From positions 1 through 29,199 of the IMG/VR virus record IMGVR_UViG_3300045971_001051: a stretch of DNA of 29,199 nt; one strand, written 5' to 3'. The stretch is from a virus. The number at the start of each line of letters is the position of its first letter. The stretch's first letter is position 1. Position numbers and translations under genes: made by a program. A model generated the notes under the pieces. It did no database searches. It saw only the letters and a program-made list of their open reading frames with translations, and was not told where the DNA came from. Shown here piece by piece: positions 1,782 to 28,941 of the stretch.

Positions 1782-3411
1782 TATCAATATTGACTATGAC
1801 AGTGTATTTCTACCTGTTTATAAGCCGCTCAGAACTACTGATGCCCGGCTAAAATTTGTGTATGGTGGCCGTGATAGCGGTAAAAGTCGCGACCGTGCCC
1901 AACAGAAAATATTGGACTGCCTTCAAAATAAATACTTCCGGTGTATTCTAATTAAGAAAACAGCCAATTCAATTAAGGATAGCCAATGGCAGCTGATAAA
2001 AGATATTTGCGAGGAATGGCATATTGATCATTTATTCCAGTTTAATACCAGCCCATTAGAAATTAAATGCAAGGTGAACGGCAATAAGTTCATTTGCCGG
2101 GGGATGGATGATCCGGCAAAAATTAAATCTATTAATGAGCCCAGCGATGCATGGATTGAAGAAGGTAACCAGCTAACCATTGAAGACTGGATCTATATCA
2201 TTACCACATTAAGGAGTAACCGTGGACCAGTTGGTATTGATATGACTTTCAATACTGAAACCCGGGGCGATTATGAAGACTTCTGGTTGTATAAAGAATA
2301 CTTTAGTCATACATCAGAGAAAAGCTTTACCCATACTAAAACCATCAGCTTTGGCAATGAAAAGGTAGATCTTAAATACATTGCTGTTCATAGTACCTAC
2401 CATGATAATCCATATGTAAGCATTGAAAGGAAGGCGTATCATGAGGGCTTACAGACTTTAAATTATTACTGGTACCGGGTATTTACGCAGGGCCTTTGGG
2501 GAAATGAAGAAAACAATAGTCCATGGTTGTTTGCATTTGCAAGGAATAAGCATGTAAGCCCGGTGGAACTATTTGCCAAACGATCGGAAACACTTTATTT
2601 ATCCTTTGACTTTAATAGAAACCCGCATGCATGCAGCATTATTCAATGGTTTGATGAGACTGTTTGGATTATTGAAGTGCTGAAAATTCCCAATGTTGGA
2701 ACAGAAGGAATTTGCGAGATTGTCCGGGAAAAATATCCGGGCTATCTGTACATGATTACCGGGGATTATTCCGGCGATACAGTTTCATCACTATTTAAAG
2801 AGCATGTTACCAATTATACCATCATCAAAAAAGTATTGAAATTAAATGAAGGTCAGGTAAAAATAACTCCAAATCCAAGGCTGGAGAAAAACCAAACACT
2901 GGTAAACATGATATTCCAGAAATACAAAGTGCTGATGTGTCCGGTAAAAGCGAAGGCTGCTATTTATGATGCTGAGAAAGTAAAGACCCGGGCCGATGGC
3001 ACAATCGTGAAGGTTGATAGAAATGATCCGGCCCAACAGGCGGATGTACTGGATACAATGCGTTATTGGTTCAACCAGTTTATGGGATGGTTTATTAAAA
3101 AGAATGAGACGGTATCTTACACCAAAGCCGGTGAAGCCGAAGCAAAAGAAGAAGCTTTTAAAGAAAAAGTAAAGGCATACCATGAAATAATTGCGAATGC
3201 TACCAAAGGCGTGGATGTGATAGATGACGCCATCATTGCCATATCGAACGGTAACCTGGTGATCTGCACAAAACCAGAATATGAAAAAATGGTTCGCAAT
3301 GCCATCCTCACCCAGGCCGGTAAATGGATTGAAAAAAATGATAGCATAAGAGCAGAAATAGCCCTCAATGAAATTAAACGCCTGGATAAACGATTTAAGA
3401 ATGGCAAATAA
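1768..3411 (+). CDS. terL: terminase large subunit (packaging ATPase and nuclease)
   Basis: The large terminase subunit pumps DNA into the prohead and cuts it. The ATPase part has Walker A GGRDSGKS at residues 33-40 and Walker B AWIEE at 128-132. The RNase H-like nuclease part has SFDFNRNP at 279-286, GDYSGDT at 332-338 and ADVLDTMRYW at 425-434, which supply the metal-binding acidic residues. This matches the PBSX/Terminase_3 type. Residues after about 440 add some 105 residues, rich in Lys and Glu, beyond the last nuclease motif. Start is GTG at 1768, inside the end of terS, which suggests translational coupling. The 3' end overlaps the glycosyltransferase start by 11 bp. The protein looks complete. 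Confidence 0.95.
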   Translation: MPVVNINIDYDSVFLPVYKPLRTTDARLKFVYGGRDSGKSRDRAQQKILDCLQNKYFRCILIKKTANSIKDSQWQLIKDICEEWHIDHLFQFNTSPLEIKCKVNGNKFICRGMDDPAKIKSINEPSDAWIEEGNQLTIEDWIYIITTLRSNRGPVGIDMTFNTETRGDYEDFWLYKEYFSHTSEKSFTHTKTISFGNEKVDLKYIAVHSTYHDNPYVSIERKAYHEGLQTLNYYWYRVFTQGLWGNEENNSPWLFAFARNKHVSPVELFAKRSETLYLSFDFNRNPHACSIIQWFDETVWIIEVLKIPNVGTEGICEIVREKYPGYLYMITGDYSGDTVSSLFKEHVTNYTIIKKVLKLNEGQVKITPNPRLEKNQTLVNMIFQKYKVLMCPVKAKAAIYDAEKVKTRADGTIVKVDRNDPAQQADVLDTMRYWFNQFMGWFIKKNETVSYTKAGEAEAKEEAFKEKVKAYHEIIANATKGVDVIDDAIIAISNGNLVICTKPEYEKMVRNAILTQAGKWIEKNDSIRAEIALNEIKRLDKRFKNGK

Positions 3412-4003
3412 AATATTCTGCATCAACCTGGATAGAAGGCCCGACCGATGGTTGCATGCGCAGGAACAATTTAATAAGCATGGTTTGATGGTGGAACGTT
3501 TTGCGGCTATTGATGGCAATGATTTTATCAGAAGCTACCCGGCAGACAATGCCAATAACGGCTGCACCCTCTCCCACTATTTTATCATTGAACGGGCAAA
3601 GCTGCTGGGTTATGAATCTGTGATGATTTTTGAGGATGACATTGTATTGCATGATCAGTTTAAAGAACTACTAGCTGAATGCCTGAATGATTTACCGGCA
3701 GATTGGGATATGTTATATTTCGGAGGCAGCCACCGTGAGAAGCCTTCGCCGGTTAATGAGCATATTCTACGGGTAAATAAAACGCTTACAACGCATGGTT
3801 ATATCGTCCGAAATACAATGTTTGATAAGGTGATTGATAATTTTAAAAACCTGGATAACCCGGTAGACTGCTTTTATGCGGCCTGGCAGCAGGAGTTTAA
3901 TATTTATATTACCAATCCGCCAATAGCCTGGCAAAAAGGAGGATACTCCGATATCTGCAATAGAGAAATGTATTATGATTGGATAAAGACCAATGATCAG
4001 TGA
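3401..4003 (+). CDS. glycosyltransferase family 25 (LPS-type)
   Basis: A 200-residue family 25 glycosyltransferase of the kind that adds sugars to lipopolysaccharide. It shows the family's opening strand KIFCINLDRRPDRW (residues 4-17), ERFAAIDG (32-39), the GCTLSHY segment (54-60) and the metal/sugar-nucleotide EDD at 78-80, and ends with the usual Q-x3-YSDI region. ATG 3401 is chosen over the in-frame ATG at 3368 because the family motif begins only three residues later. It overlaps terL by 11 bp, so it is part of the packaging operon and not a loose insertion. It may glycosylate a virion protein or alter host surface sugars; the acceptor cannot be read from sequence. The family call is strong. 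Confidence 0.9.
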   Translation: MANKIFCINLDRRPDRWLHAQEQFNKHGLMVERFAAIDGNDFIRSYPADNANNGCTLSHYFIIERAKLLGYESVMIFEDDIVLHDQFKELLAECLNDLPADWDMLYFGGSHREKPSPVNEHILRVNKTLTTHGYIVRNTMFDKVIDNFKNLDNPVDCFYAAWQQEFNIYITNPPIAWQKGGYSDICNREMYYDWIKTNDQ

Positions 4004-4263: not shown

Positions 4264-4298
4264 TAGTCTCAAAGATAAATATTTTATCAATTAGACTA
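4264..4298. promoter_or_regulatory. 35-bp palindromic operator, copy A
   Basis: The site reads TAGTCT-N4-GATAAA-N3-TTTATC-N4-AGACTA, two nested perfect inverted repeats centred on 4281. It lies between divergent genes, and its edges overlap both promoter boxes. A second copy with the same architecture is at 28907-28941. The two-fold symmetry fits a dimeric or tetrameric regulator. Because it covers the -33 region of both promoters, and neither has a good -33 TTG, the regulator may be an activator; a repressor is also possible. Confidence 0.75.
4270..4277 (-). promoter_or_regulatory. minus-strand -7 box TATCTTTG
   Basis: On the minus strand the sequence is TATCTTTG, an exact match to the Bacteroidota -7 consensus TAnnTTTG. 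It lies 16 bases before the ATG of the gene at 4253, inside the 35-bp palindrome. No -33 TTG is seen at the usual distance. Confidence 0.5.
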
Positions 4299-13618: not shown

Positions 13619-14239
13619 ATGCATAAAGTAGAAATTAAAGAAGGCATCAATCCAAAGGATTTTTTCCCGGATGCGAAACATATCATCATCTATGCGTTTA
13701 CGATTGGTAACCGGCATTACTTCCGCTTTGATGATCCGTTGAATACGCCTTATGACCGAGCGCTTAAATGCCTGGTATATTATAAGGAGCTGGACATGAA
13801 CTGCGACCGGGTATTTTTAAAGGCGCATACCGAAGCCATTGACAATATGCTAATGAAAGGTAAGTTTTCGCTGGCTGATCTGATGACGGTGAAAACTTTG
13901 AATGAACAATTAAAGCAACGCCTTGAACTACCAAAAGAGCCGGATTTAATGTACAAACTGGCCAGCGTAGTTTTCTTTGATCAGTTTGAGAAGCCGACTG
14001 TGTACGAATTTAAATACGGTGAAAGCAAGATTCATTTTTGGAAGAAAAACACCAGCCTGACAGATTTTTTTTTGAGCAGTCCTTTGAGGGAATTGATACC
14101 TTATTTAGAATATGCAGAGAGCAGTTTAACTACGTTTTCCCAGATGACAGAAAAGGTATCGCAACAGCAATTGGATTATCTATTGCCACTGCTATCGGAA
14201 ACACAGAAAATGGCCTTATCAAACAAAGAAATATTGTAG
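13619..14239 (+). CDS. tail assembly chaperone, frame-0 product
   Basis: A 206-residue protein just upstream of the tape measure gene, the standard place for tail assembly chaperones (lambda gpG/gpGT type), which load onto the tape measure during tail assembly. The first 150 residues (YAFTIGNRHYFRFDDP, then MLMKGKFSLADLM) look like one folded domain. After the nine-T run at 14065-14073 this frame continues for 55 residues to TAG at 14237-14239, while the -1 frame opens a better-looking C-terminus. Both products may be made, the longer through frameshifting, as known for this protein class. Function is inferred from position and frame structure, not from sequence identity. Confidence 0.7.
   Translation: MHKVEIKEGINPKDFFPDAKHIIIYAFTIGNRHYFRFDDPLNTPYDRALKCLVYYKELDMNCDRVFLKAHTEAIDNMLMKGKFSLADLMTVKTLNEQLKQRLELPKEPDLMYKLASVVFFDQFEKPTVYEFKYGESKIHFWKKNTSLTDFFLSSPLRELIPYLEYAESSLTTFSQMTEKVSQQQLDYLLPLLSETQKMALSNKEIL
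14065..14073 (+). other. T9 slippery run, candidate -1 frameshift site
   Basis: Nine T residues place the heptamer T TTT TTT in the frame of the chaperone gene (codons TTT 14066-14068 and TTT 14069-14071). A -1 slip gives a further TTT and then GAG, entering the frame open to 14346. This is the canonical X-XXY-YYZ form. Transcriptional slippage on the T-run, or an undercalled T in the assembly, would give the same fusion. Confidence 0.65.
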
Positions 14240-14346
14240 CGGCAAGTTTGAATGGACTGAACATTCAGGACTTTACTATTTATGAATTTTACTGGCATTT
14301 AAATGAGCTGATAAAACAAGCTGTAAAGGCCAAGAATAAAAAATAG
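14071..14346 (+). CDS. -1 frame extension of the tail chaperone
   Basis: This frame is the -1 continuation of the chaperone gene after the T9 run; the fused product would be about 242 residues. Its 91 codons look coding, especially the end (LNIQDFTIYEFYWHLNELI). An ATG at 14038 could start it alone, but that would place 11 codons inside the upstream domain in another frame and is less likely. It is followed by an A6 run (14338-14343) and TAG at 14344-14346, after which the reading seems to shift again. Confidence 0.6.
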   Translation, partial: FEQSFEGIDTLFRICREQFNYVFPDDRKGIATAIGLSIATAIGNTENGLIKQRNIVAASLNGLNIQDFTIYEFYWHLNELIKQAVKAKNKK

Positions 14347-14450
14347 ACTTTTTAAAATATATTCCTATTGATAAAGAAATTATCTTTGAGAATACAACAC
14401 AATACCTGGCACCTTCATCTGTGCAATACTTTCTCCCAACTGGCAAATGA
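14343..14450 (+). other. open coding-like stretch without a start; possible further -1 extension
   Basis: Reading from 14343 gives 35 protein-like codons (IDFLKYIPIDKEIIFENT, later YLAPSSVQYFLPTGK) that end in TGA at 14448-14450, only 6 bases before the tape measure ATG. No ATG, GTG or TTG opens this frame after its upstream stop at 14337. A -1 shift at the A6 run would attach it to the preceding segment and give a 277-residue protein. This would also remove the otherwise unusual 110-bp gap before the tape measure gene. One missing A in the assembly would look the same. Confidence 0.5.
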
Positions 14451-14456
14451 ATTTCA

Positions 14457-22314: not shown

Positions 22315-23154
22315 ATGATGACAAAAGGAATATTATTGATTGCATTGGGACATACCAATTATTACAGGATGGCTGCTGTATTGGCTGCCAGCATTAAAGT
22401 AAATGATGCATTACCAGTTTGCCTGATCACAGATTGCGAACCATTACCGGAGCATGCCGGATTATTTAAAATAGTAAAGGCTCCTACCAAAAAAAGCATC
22501 TACAATGGTGATAAAATTGAGTACATCAAAGCAAAGTTGTTTATGTACGATTACTCTCCTTTTGATGAAACTATTTTTTTGGATGTGGACCAGGTGATGA
22601 TTTCAGGGCGAAAATTATCACCGGTTTTTGATGAGCTAAAGGATATTGATATTACGTTCAGCAATACCGGGCTGGCGGAAGAAAGTGTGTGGGCAGATAT
22701 TGATCAGGTACAGCAGATTTATGGTAAAAAACCTTTCTGGAATTACCATTCTGAGTTTGTTTATTTTAAAAAAGGTAAAACTACCCGGACTTATTTTGAA
22801 GCCGCAAAAAAGGTTTATATCGAGGACAAAATTAATTCAGCAACCCGTTTTTCAGGATCTACCATGGCGGATGAATTGGCTTTCCAGGTAGCTGCAATGG
22901 TAACTGATGTTTATCCTCATAAAGCAAACTGGCTGCCTAATTTTTGGTTTGACAGAAGCCCAAAAGATGCAACAAAATATCCTTACCAACTTACTGAATA
23001 TATAACTTATTCGATTGGAGGTAAAACTACCCCGCAACGGGTGAAGGATAATTACAATAACCTGGCGAAGCACTACTTCGCATTACTTGGTTTGTCATTC
23101 CCTTATCAGGTGGTTGACAAACGTTCCTTTTTACCTGAAAGAAAATTGTATTAA
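22315..23154 (+). CDS. GT-A fold glycosyltransferase, GT8-like
   Basis: A 279-residue putative glycosyltransferase. It opens with a Rossmann-like strand (KGILLIALGHTNYYRMAAVL), has a nucleotide-side CLITDCEP segment and the metal-binding TIFLDVDQVM at 87-96, with DVD in the place of the DxD motif, and later W-x-YHSEFVYFKKGK and DELAFQVA segments as in GT8-type enzymes. It lies between the Ig-repeat tail protein and the portal, so it is co-expressed with virion genes. It is unrelated in sequence to the GT25 enzyme at 3401. The two start ATGs (22315 and 22318) are adjacent. The fold call is good; sugar and acceptor are unknown. Confidence 0.78.
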   Translation: MMTKGILLIALGHTNYYRMAAVLAASIKVNDALPVCLITDCEPLPEHAGLFKIVKAPTKKSIYNGDKIEYIKAKLFMYDYSPFDETIFLDVDQVMISGRKLSPVFDELKDIDITFSNTGLAEESVWADIDQVQQIYGKKPFWNYHSEFVYFKKGKTTRTYFEAAKKVYIEDKINSATRFSGSTMADELAFQVAAMVTDVYPHKANWLPNFWFDRSPKDATKYPYQLTEYITYSIGGKTTPQRVKDNYNNLAKHYFALLGLSFPYQVVDKRSFLPERKLY

Positions 23155-23155
23155 A

Positions 23156-24982
23156 ATGCCAAAAATTAGCAATGAAAAATTACAGATGTACTTTACCAGT
23201 GGTGGGGTATACTATCCGCTTTTTGTAGAATCGGTAAAATTATACAATGACTTAAAGGTGCATGCTGATGGAGTATTTCCAAGTAGCCTGATTGAGAAAC
23301 AGCGGCCAAATGAAAGCGAGGAGATTCTTAAATACAGAAAAGATATTTATGAGCCTATTACCAAACTTCCACTGAGTAAGGTTATCAATTGCTATAGTAA
23401 AATAAGGCGCTCACCAGATTGGATGATCAACTTCCCGGCCGAGAAAGTATCCTCAAAAATTGTGGATGAAGAAACGCTGGAAGATTATTGCAATGAAAAG
23501 TTGCCGGGCTTTGGTAGTATTACCAATTGGGCATTTGACATCCTTTTGCCACAGAACTTAATTGATGCCAATGCTGTAATTGCTGTAATTCCTGTAAAAA
23601 ATATTGTATCTGATTCATTTGCTGAGCCAGCTCCTATTTTGTTTAACAGCGACCTGGTGATGATATTGAATGAGCAGGAAAAATACTGCATTCTTAAGAG
23701 CCGGATAAAAGTGAATTATCTTGATAAGAACAATGTATTTCAGGCAGGTGAACGGTTTTACTACATTGATGAAAATGAAATAGCGATTTATGAGCAAACA
23801 GAAAATGGCTATGCACAGGTATTTTACCAGGTGAATACAATCGCTCAGTTTCCGGTATTTAAGGTGAAGTCTGAAAGCTTTATGCAGTTTGAAAATATGA
23901 CGCTCCACCGTAGCCGGCTTCATGCGATGGTGCCATTTTTAAACAAAGCTGCCTCCGGAGATAGTGATCTGGATGGTAGCAAGATTCAGCATTTAAATCC
24001 GCTGTTCTGGTATTTTCAGAATAAGTCATGCAACAGTTGCGAGGGAACTGGTAAAACTGCAACCGAAAATGGTGCAGTAGAATGTAAAACATGCTCCGGA
24101 ACCGGTAAAGTAAAGTTTTCTCCTTTCGCACATATTCAAGTAGATCCTGCCGGGCTTGGTAACCAGGCTAACCCAATACCACCTGCAGGTTATGTTGTTC
24201 GTGATACGGCTATTCTGGAACTACAGGAAAAGACGGTTGAGAAAAATAATTATAAGGCGCTTGCTGCGATGAACATGCAGTTTCTTGACCAAACACCACT
24301 TGCCATCAGCGGCACCGCCAAACAGGTGGATCGGGAGGAATTGAACAACACTGTATTTAATACTGCGGAGGACCTTGTTTATGCAATTGACAAAGTGATA
24401 TTCTTCATCAATGAATGGCGGTACATCTATGTTGTTCCTGATAAAAATACCCGCCGGGAAATGTTGCCCAACATACCGGTACCACAAAACTATGATTTGC
24501 TGCCAGAGGATTATTTGATGAAGGAAGTAACGGATGCAAGAACTGCCAAGGTGAACCCGCTATTGATTGCAACCCTGGAACAGCAGCTGGCGGCAAAGAA
24601 ATTTTATAACCAGCCGGAATTGGCCTGCAACATCAAATTGTATTTTGATCTGGATCCTCTTCCCGGTTTATCGGTTGATGAAAAAATGAGTCTGATCAGT
24701 AACCAGGCCATTACCAAAGAAGATTTTGTGATCAGTAGCTATATGGCATCATTCATAAAAAGGGCCCTGAGAGAAGACAGCGAATTTGATAAAAAGGACT
24801 ATAGCCAGCAAATATCGGTATTGAGTAAATATGCGGCTGAAAAAATGAAGGCCAATGATACAGCAGCGCAGATGATTGATGCACAGAAACAGGCGGTACT
24901 ATTGGAGATACAGGCTAACGGGGGCCAGCAACCAGCAGGCCAATCAGCAGCCAAACAAGTTGGGCAGCCAGCAGGGCAATAA
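23156..24982 (+). CDS. portal protein with an inserted DnaJ-type zinc motif
   Basis: A 608-residue protein I call the portal: the ring through which DNA enters the capsid and to which terminase docks. Support: size, position immediately before the Mu gpF-like gene, an N-terminal region of portal type (KYRKDIYEPITKLPLSKVIN), and a helical C-terminus ending in a Gln/Ala/Gly tail. Start ATG 23156 gives the TAAAATG junction; an in-frame start at 23087 would lie deep in the upstream gene. At residues 292-299 and 310-317 are two C-x2-C-x-G-x-G motifs (CNSCEGTG, CKTCSGTG), the DnaJ zinc-binding pattern, which I do not know from portals. Portal is the best reading but rests partly on context. Confidence 0.75.
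   Translation: MPKISNEKLQMYFTSGGVYYPLFVESVKLYNDLKVHADGVFPSSLIEKQRPNESEEILKYRKDIYEPITKLPLSKVINCYSKIRRSPDWMINFPAEKVSSKIVDEETLEDYCNEKLPGFGSITNWAFDILLPQNLIDANAVIAVIPVKNIVSDSFAEPAPILFNSDLVMILNEQEKYCILKSRIKVNYLDKNNVFQAGERFYYIDENEIAIYEQTENGYAQVFYQVNTIAQFPVFKVKSESFMQFENMTLHRSRLHAMVPFLNKAASGDSDLDGSKIQHLNPLFWYFQNKSCNSCEGTGKTATENGAVECKTCSGTGKVKFSPFAHIQVDPAGLGNQANPIPPAGYVVRDTAILELQEKTVEKNNYKALAAMNMQFLDQTPLAISGTAKQVDREELNNTVFNTAEDLVYAIDKVIFFINEWRYIYVVPDKNTRREMLPNIPVPQNYDLLPEDYLMKEVTDARTAKVNPLLIATLEQQLAAKKFYNQPELACNIKLYFDLDPLPGLSVDEKMSLISNQAITKEDFVISSYMASFIKRALREDSEFDKKDYSQQISVLSKYAAEKMKANDTAAQMIDAQKQAVLLEIQANGGQQPAGQSAAKQVGQPAGQ
24029..24106 (+). other. DnaJ-type CxxCxGxG pair inside the portal gene
   Basis: Codons 292-317 of the portal gene encode CNSCEGTG and CKTCSGTG separated by ten residues. 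In DnaJ, two such motifs hold one zinc ion. All four Cys and the Gly positions are kept, so zinc binding is likely. Confidence 0.75.
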
Positions 24983-27366: not shown

Positions 27367-27423
27367 GGTATTGCGATTTTTATTTATTCTATTGTCCGTT
27401 GGACGAATAAAAATCGCAATACC
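27367..27423. repeat. 18-bp perfect inverted repeat forming a long hairpin
   Basis: GGTATTGCGATTTTTATT (27367-27384) has an exact reverse complement at 27406-27423. Between them GTCC (27394-27397) pairs with GGAC (27401-27404) around a GTT loop. No T-run follows on either strand. It lies just past the end of the minus-strand operon and could be a bidirectional transcript end, an RNA-stabilising hairpin or a small mobile repeat. Confidence 0.7.
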
Positions 27424-27449: not shown

Positions 27450-27791
27450 TTATTCAAAACTGATTTTACACCAAACACAAAATTTATTACCCGGATTATT
27501 TGGCTTGTTACATTCCGGGCAATATAATTGCAAATTACTTTGGGCTATAGCTACCTCATGTTTAATGGCATTGTGAATTGCCATCAGGCTTCCATTATTT
27601 TCCCGCCAGTAGTTGCAGCAAAAATAGGCTTCAGTATAAAGTATTGTTTTATCATTAATTGTCGTCTCCCGGTCCTGGACTATTTTAGAAGGAGCAATTA
27701 CATCATGACAGGCTCCAAACTTTTCACCTACCCGGGTAAAAATATCGGCTTCCCAATGGATGCAGGTGCAACAGAATTTTGCTTGCGACAT
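27450..27791 (-). CDS. double zinc-binding-site protein
   Basis: A 113-residue protein, last gene of the minus-strand operon. Its C-terminal end is a typical zinc ribbon, CPECNKPNNPGNKFCVWC (about 92-109). The N-terminal half has a second Cys set, CCTCIHW near residue 7, GACHD near 27 and FCCNYW near 57, which could form another metal site. Such ribbons bind nucleic acid or proteins. No enzyme motif is seen. It follows the gene at 27806 by 14 bases. An anti-defence or regulatory role is possible, but only by location. Confidence 0.7.
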   Translation of the reverse strand: MSQAKFCCTCIHWEADIFTRVGEKFGACHDVIAPSKIVQDRETTINDKTILYTEAYFCCNYWRENNGSLMAIHNAIKHEVAIAQSNLQLYCPECNKPNNPGNKFCVWCKISFE

Positions 27792-28906: not shown

Positions 28907-28941
28907 TAGTCTCTATGATAATTATTTTATCTTTCAGACTA
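28907..28941. promoter_or_regulatory. 35-bp palindromic operator, copy B
   Basis: TAGTCT-N4-GATAAT-N3-TTTATC-N4-AGACTA, the same length, arm spacing and outer arms as copy A at 4264-4298, differing by one base in the inner arms. The spacers differ, so the conserved part is just what a protein would contact. It again sits between divergent genes. Confidence 0.75.

Follow-up and report, generated by a model that had tools for sequence, protein, structure and literature searches.

In phage lambda, the tail assembly chaperone gene lies before the tape measure gene, and one N-terminus receives two C-termini by a -1 shift (PMC5009743). In phage P2, E and E+E' arise from the tail operon through a -1 frameshift at T TTT TTG, as described by Christie et al. 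2002 in the accounts given by PMC3931495 and PMC3091744, and as far as these accounts go, P2 E/E+E' is the closest precedent for the mechanism considered here. It is established that transcription in bacteria can slip on nine consecutive As or Ts (PMC5009743), and the section of the same source on Thermus thermophilus dnaX describes slippage of RNA polymerase on nine Ts. In this study, we analysed a virus record of 29,199 bases (the window), and we believe that the gene directly upstream of its tape measure gene, which is the position expected of a chaperone, is very probably a tail assembly chaperone of the G/GT type, in which the reading frame is changed once, by -1 and in a programmed way, at a conserved T9G site (Table 1). 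Most reading would stay in frame 0 and give G, whose last ~57 residues would form its own conserved C-terminus. A minority, entering the -1 frame at T TTT TTT/T TTT TTG, would give GT, 242 aa long and ending in 91 residues that differ from the C-terminus of G; this excess of G over GT is our presumption.

Table 1. Positions of the features discussed, numbered along the window
Feature	Position	Strand	Basis
Second dyad copy (TAGTCT...AGACTA)	4264-4298		Motif match
Frame-0 ORF, unshifted "G" product, 206 aa	13619-14239	+	56-83% identity, same ORF in 7/7 relatives
Slip site T9G (GAT TTT TTT TTG)	14065-14074	+	8/8 identical, alignment gap-free
-1 frame ORF ("T" part), 91 codons + TAG	14071-14346	+	Conserved in 8/8
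Overlap, read as protein-coding in both frame 0 and frame -1	14075-14236	+	Codon-position divergence flattened
Window-specific insert between -1 ORF stop and tape measure start, read as non-coding	14344-14456	+	In 7/7 relatives the stop touches or overlaps the start
Dyad element copy TATTCC-N4-GATAA-N5-TTATC-N4-AGAATA, diverged	14360-14394		Lineage-specific, intergenic
28-nt putative relic of T-domain coding sequence as kept in relatives	14408-14435	+	24/28 to L004
Tape measure protein (predicted), 1104 aa	14457-17771	+	~30% identity to annotated tape-measure proteins
Third dyad copy, between divergent ORFs	28907-28941		Motif match

When the joined protein was used as a query, five viral contigs were found, and aligning these with the window gave two more. 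The seven relatives (L003-L007, L022 and L023) come from seven different metagenome data sets, and their best-segment identity to the window is 64-86% for six and 57% for the seventh. No relative of G was found by peptide patterns in the GTDB genomes. The more distant tape-measure relatives L011 and L012 have terminase close upstream, without a comparable gene, and are hence uninformative. T9G is present in 7/7 relatives, and the slip-site sequence TTTTTTTTTG, with T9 at 14065-14073, is identical in all eight contigs. The overlap aligns at the nucleotide level with zero gaps. The first-pass annotation of this DNA had correctly placed the frame-0 ATG (13619), T9, the -1 TAG, the A6 run, the third-frame TGA and the tape measure ATG, and the relatives support its reading of a gene of tail-chaperone type that precedes the tape measure and shifts once to the -1 frame, at T9. 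It had also described frame 0 as open to T9, which is the case, but had missed that frame 0 continues beyond this run: it goes on to TAG 14237-14239, and this extension is kept in 7/7 relatives, reaching 54-65 codons past T9 across the eight contigs. The -1 frame of the window is open from T9 to TAG 14344-14346, beside A6 (14338-14343), and a single frame change joins G to this ORF, whose counterparts in the relatives have 91-97 codons.

The two ORFs are thus joined by a conserved slippery site, and the second lacks a start of its own, as expected of a chaperone of this type. One might suppose instead that the -1 ORF is a separate gene that starts by itself without any frame change, and a TTG does lie 11 codons upstream in the -1 frame of the window, L005 and L022. 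However, the -1 frame is closed by a stop codon immediately ahead of the T run in L003, L004, L006 and L007, and none of the four has an early start in it. L003 has only two ATGs in this frame, both near its end, and the -1 frame of L004, L006 and L007 is free of ATG, GTG and TTG throughout. Because these three have no start codon in frame, we consider that the -1 ORF is entered by a frame change, and a self-starting gene is highly improbable. The X XXY YYZ heptamer expected of programmed -1 ribosomal frameshifting is conserved in the zero-frame phase in 8/8 contigs, where T9 offers T TTT TTT as well as T TTT TTG in that phase, and all eight also have an A/T run of about nine or more, conserved in length, as expected for transcriptional slippage.

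The codon-position pattern of divergence was used to evaluate coding in the two frames. Upstream of T9, where only frame 0 is read, the mean pairwise difference at frame-0 codon positions 1, 2 and 3 is.234,.149 and.505; past the frame-0 stop, where only the -1 frame is read, it is.245,.501 and.302 by the same numbering, in which frame-0 position 2 is the third position of the -1 frame. In the overlap the values are.239,.243 and.340, lower at the wobble position of either frame than where that frame is read alone. The -1 wobble differs between the overlap and the -1-only region with a Mann-Whitney p of 2e-5, and the frame-0 wobble between the overlap and the upstream region with a p of 8e-5, both values being indicative, as the sequences compared are related. 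Up to the first frame-0 stop, frame 0 and the -1 frame contain no stops in 8/8 contigs, and the third frame has many stops in the overlap. When synonymous sequences were redrawn to keep the frame-0 protein, the -1 frame stayed open in only 0.04-1.8% of draws; when the -1 protein was kept, frame 0 stayed open in 1-44% per sequence, which is less improbable. Support for frame-0 coding would therefore come mainly from the substitution pattern together with the extension past T9, in which the sequence PLxELIPYL..A...L is conserved. These results indicate that both frames of the overlap are under purifying selection. Because the wobble is held down in each frame, the substitution evidence also indicates that the unshifted and the shifted protein have different, conserved C-termini and that both are real. 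About 51-54 codons after T9 would be read in two frames.

It had been proposed that bases were missing from the homopolymers, an assembly error that would break one continuous gene, and homopolymers are indeed classic error sites. This proposal is not supported, given the identity of T9 in eight independent contigs, the relatives being drawn from seven metagenome data sets, and the conserved proteins found in both frames behind it; T10 instead of T9 would lose the conserved frame-0 extension. We regard the chance of such an error as close to negligible.

The first-pass annotation had also proposed a second -1 shift. In that reading, a shift at T9 is followed by another at A6-TAG (14338-14346), giving a protein of 277 residues. 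The third frame is open from 14340 to 14447, and six bases separate its stop, TGA 14448-14450, from the tape measure ATG (14457); in principle, a Lys codon ahead of the TAG might also allow slippage. However, the third stretch is absent in 7/7 relatives, in which the -1 stop touches or overlaps the tape measure ATG or GTG. Their -1 frame ends at or near the alignment column of the window's own end, and in a six-sequence alignment their stop occupies the same column as the window TAG 14344. The A6 before the stop is not conserved among the relatives. The stretch 14343-14450 has no similarity to homologues in the claimed frame, which removes the ground for the second shift. Nor does its coding-like appearance count for much: a stop-free run of 35 codons arises by chance at like composition in 7.5% of cases in a given frame and in 22% in any frame, and no relative carries the stretch. 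A search with the third-stretch peptide gave nothing convincing in relatives or phages, where no match went beyond E = 0.4, a chance match, and the only chaperone-like similarity lay in another frame. Two candidates were rejected in this connection. The 277-residue double-shift protein was tried as a query, and no relative gave a match to its last ~36 residues; a phage hit to the third stretch (E = 3 and 0.4) falls in a bacterial ORF resembling a TonB-dependent receptor and was judged to be chance. Two successive shifts are extremely unlikely. TAG 14344 reads, on the alignment, as the natural end of the gene, and the double frameshift is an intergenic insert read as coding. At the level of sequence, comparison shows a single shift site, coding in both frames and relatives that lack a second shift. 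The products can be told apart by peptides, for example ELIPYLEYAESSLTTFSQMTEK, which is private to the G C-terminus, EQFNYVFPDDR in the GT C-terminus and DFLKYIPIDK in the third stretch.

The insert of ~113 nt between the -1 stop (included) and the tape measure ATG occurs in the window alone, and the third stretch contains within it a dyad element and, in another frame, a relic of the T domain, both of which speak against its being coding. The dyad has the form TASTCT-N4-GATAA-N5-TTATC-N4-AGASTA, with five pattern matches in the window and 0 in 100 shuffles. In the insert copy, the outer arms are changed (TATTC/GAATA) and the pairing is kept. Looser copies occur in 6/7 relatives, mostly in intergenic gaps, and the exact pattern was found among 2.9 million viral contigs in only three of the relatives. 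Palindromes in the window are not significant as such (14/20 pairs, within the resampled range), and the case for the dyad is made because the motif recurs, not by symmetry alone. Because several copies end in a TAnnTTTG-like sequence, which we take to be the Bacteroidetes -7 box, the element is likely to be a promoter or operator. Further dyad loci were noted beyond the window in L025 and L028-L031. The relic site scores best among all windows of the seven relative loci, and its homologous frame is in the phase of frame 0, not in that of the third frame proposed earlier. The exact insert piece GAATACAACACAATACCTGGCACC was found in no viral contig. In the simplest history, insertion or recombination would have brought the dyad element and left a scrap of the older gene end. 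Apart from these elements, a perfect 18-bp inverted repeat (GGTATTGCGATTTTTATT/AATAAAAATCGCAATACC) with 21 nt between its arms was observed at 27367-27423, just past the end of the minus-strand ORF 27450-27791; it may be a terminator or a recombination site.

The frame change at T9 could be made by the ribosome or by RNA polymerase. We lean slightly towards a ribosomal slip. In the other reading, RNA polymerase slips on T9 and an mRNA with an extra U gives GT by ordinary translation, which we rate as a serious possibility, a little below an even chance. The run has exactly nine Ts in 8/8 contigs, though the ribosomal heptamer needs only seven, and nine-A/T runs are established slippage sites in bacteria (PMC5009743). 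On the other hand, T9 is largely forced by the coding of Phe-Phe-Leu and Phe-Phe-Phe in the two frames, so that its exact length is weak evidence. Polymerase slippage would also suit the finding that no stimulatory RNA structure is conserved after T9: folds were not consistent among the relatives (z-scores -1.84 to +0.55), and the consensus fold had no pair with changes on both sides. Such a structure is not obligatory for programmed -1 ribosomal frameshifting. Moreover, the ribosomal site reported for P2 is T TTT TTG, which is present here in the right phase, and in the accounts cited above P2 has no downstream hairpin either.

A further point in favour of RNA polymerase comes from distant Bacteroidetes phages: the gene in the same place has a run of A9-A11 in 27/27 sequences, and in nearly all of them either of the out-of-frame readings soon meets a stop. 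These 27 sequences of the gene before the tape measure (L036:2419, L037:1974, L038:1919, L058-L063 and L039-L056) include some that are near-identical and are not 27 independent cases. In the isolate phages PDS1, B40-8, P2559Y, TCUEAP2, FpV9 and others, the gene is one unbroken ORF of ~255 codons, and some of these records annotate it as "tail assembly chaperone". The run lies at about codon 131-134 and is A10 in 25/27; it is followed by TAG in the +1 frame in 20/27, and the -1 frame also closes soon. It is retained in genes of 52-58% G+C and an AAG-rich lysine usage. Croceibacter phage P2559S (L057) has A8 and a split ORF, so that the long product needs a frame change. The A10 gene encodes its long product in frame, and a short form would arise by slippage; because the ORF is not interrupted, this form is invisible to ordinary annotation.

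The PDS1/B40-8-type gene resembles the window gene in its place before the tape measure, in a long homopolymer at about mid-gene and in the last ~30 residues (TVLEYYNAFE... vs TIYEFYWHLN...), and differs from it in having A10 rather than T9 and a long product in frame 0. When the window protein was aligned with the A10 family by hhalign, about the last 30-32 residues only were matched, with a probability of 16% and P = 0.0015, by which homology is not established. It looks like the same task solved with the roles of the frames reversed. We tentatively suggest that Bacteroidetes phage tail chaperones could use RNA-polymerase slippage on homopolymers of fixed length, T9 here and A10 in the PDS1/B40-8 family, an idea that we hold to be somewhat doubtful. 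If it is true, frame 0 and the shifted frame swap roles between phage groups, and the question is raised whether the G:GT ratio in these phages is set at transcription rather than at translation. A full-text search of open-licence papers found none on transcriptional slippage and Bacteroides phage tails.

Known G/GT chaperones are often dissimilar in sequence. The window gene has no Pfam match and no match to a solved structure in the PDB, its PHROG matches are weak and belong to families without an assigned function, and AlphaFold models of G and T are of low confidence (pLDDT 50 and 54), too poor to use. We therefore infer the chaperone function from position and architecture. The tape measure assignment is supported by residues 23-303, which resemble proteins of Parabacteroides and Bacteroides phages that are annotated as tape measures, at the ~30% identity given in Table 1. 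Elsewhere in the window, a portal-like protein (23087-24979; portal PHROG E = 1e-9) carries at residues ~309-345 a DnaJ-type CxxCxGxG zinc-binding motif pair (CNSCEGTGK...CKTCSGTGKVKF), for which the Pfam family DnaJ_CXXCXGXG gives E = 1e-4, below its cut-off. An ORF at 3368-4003, among structural genes, reads in translation like a glycosyltransferase.

If G and GT behave like their counterparts in lambda and P2, G would form a coat on the tape measure, and recruitment of the tail tube protein would fall to GT. With lambda G/GT, the window gene shares the position before the tape measure and the single N-terminus with two C-termini. In lambda, the shift lies near the 3' end of G and little follows it in unshifted G, whereas in the window gene unshifted G gains 54-65 conserved residues; the shift is thus not near the 3' end of G, a placement that is typical of lambda and P2 and not strictly defining. 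Thermus thermophilus dnaX, as far as the section cited describes it, is alike in having a homopolymer of nine and products in more than one frame; it is an unrelated gene, and slippage at the window T9 is a candidate mechanism. According to the accounts of P2 cited above, E/E+E' has the same gene position, a T-run slip site, a -1 ORF that has no ordinary start of its own and runs up to the start of the tape measure gene that follows, and no hairpin downstream. Between P2 E and the window gene, neither a family link nor a sequence link was found. In those accounts the run is T6 in P2, in contrast to T9 here, and the P2 -1 ORF extends 37 nt back into E, whereas in the window gene two conserved frames share roughly 165-200 nt downstream of T9. 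The window gene is therefore a variant rather than a textbook G/GT layout. A false "double frameshift" is replaced by a clean, testable case in which the same DNA would encode two different conserved C-termini, and the frame change is of a well-known kind, as in lambda and P2, the long dual-coded overlap being what sets this variant apart.
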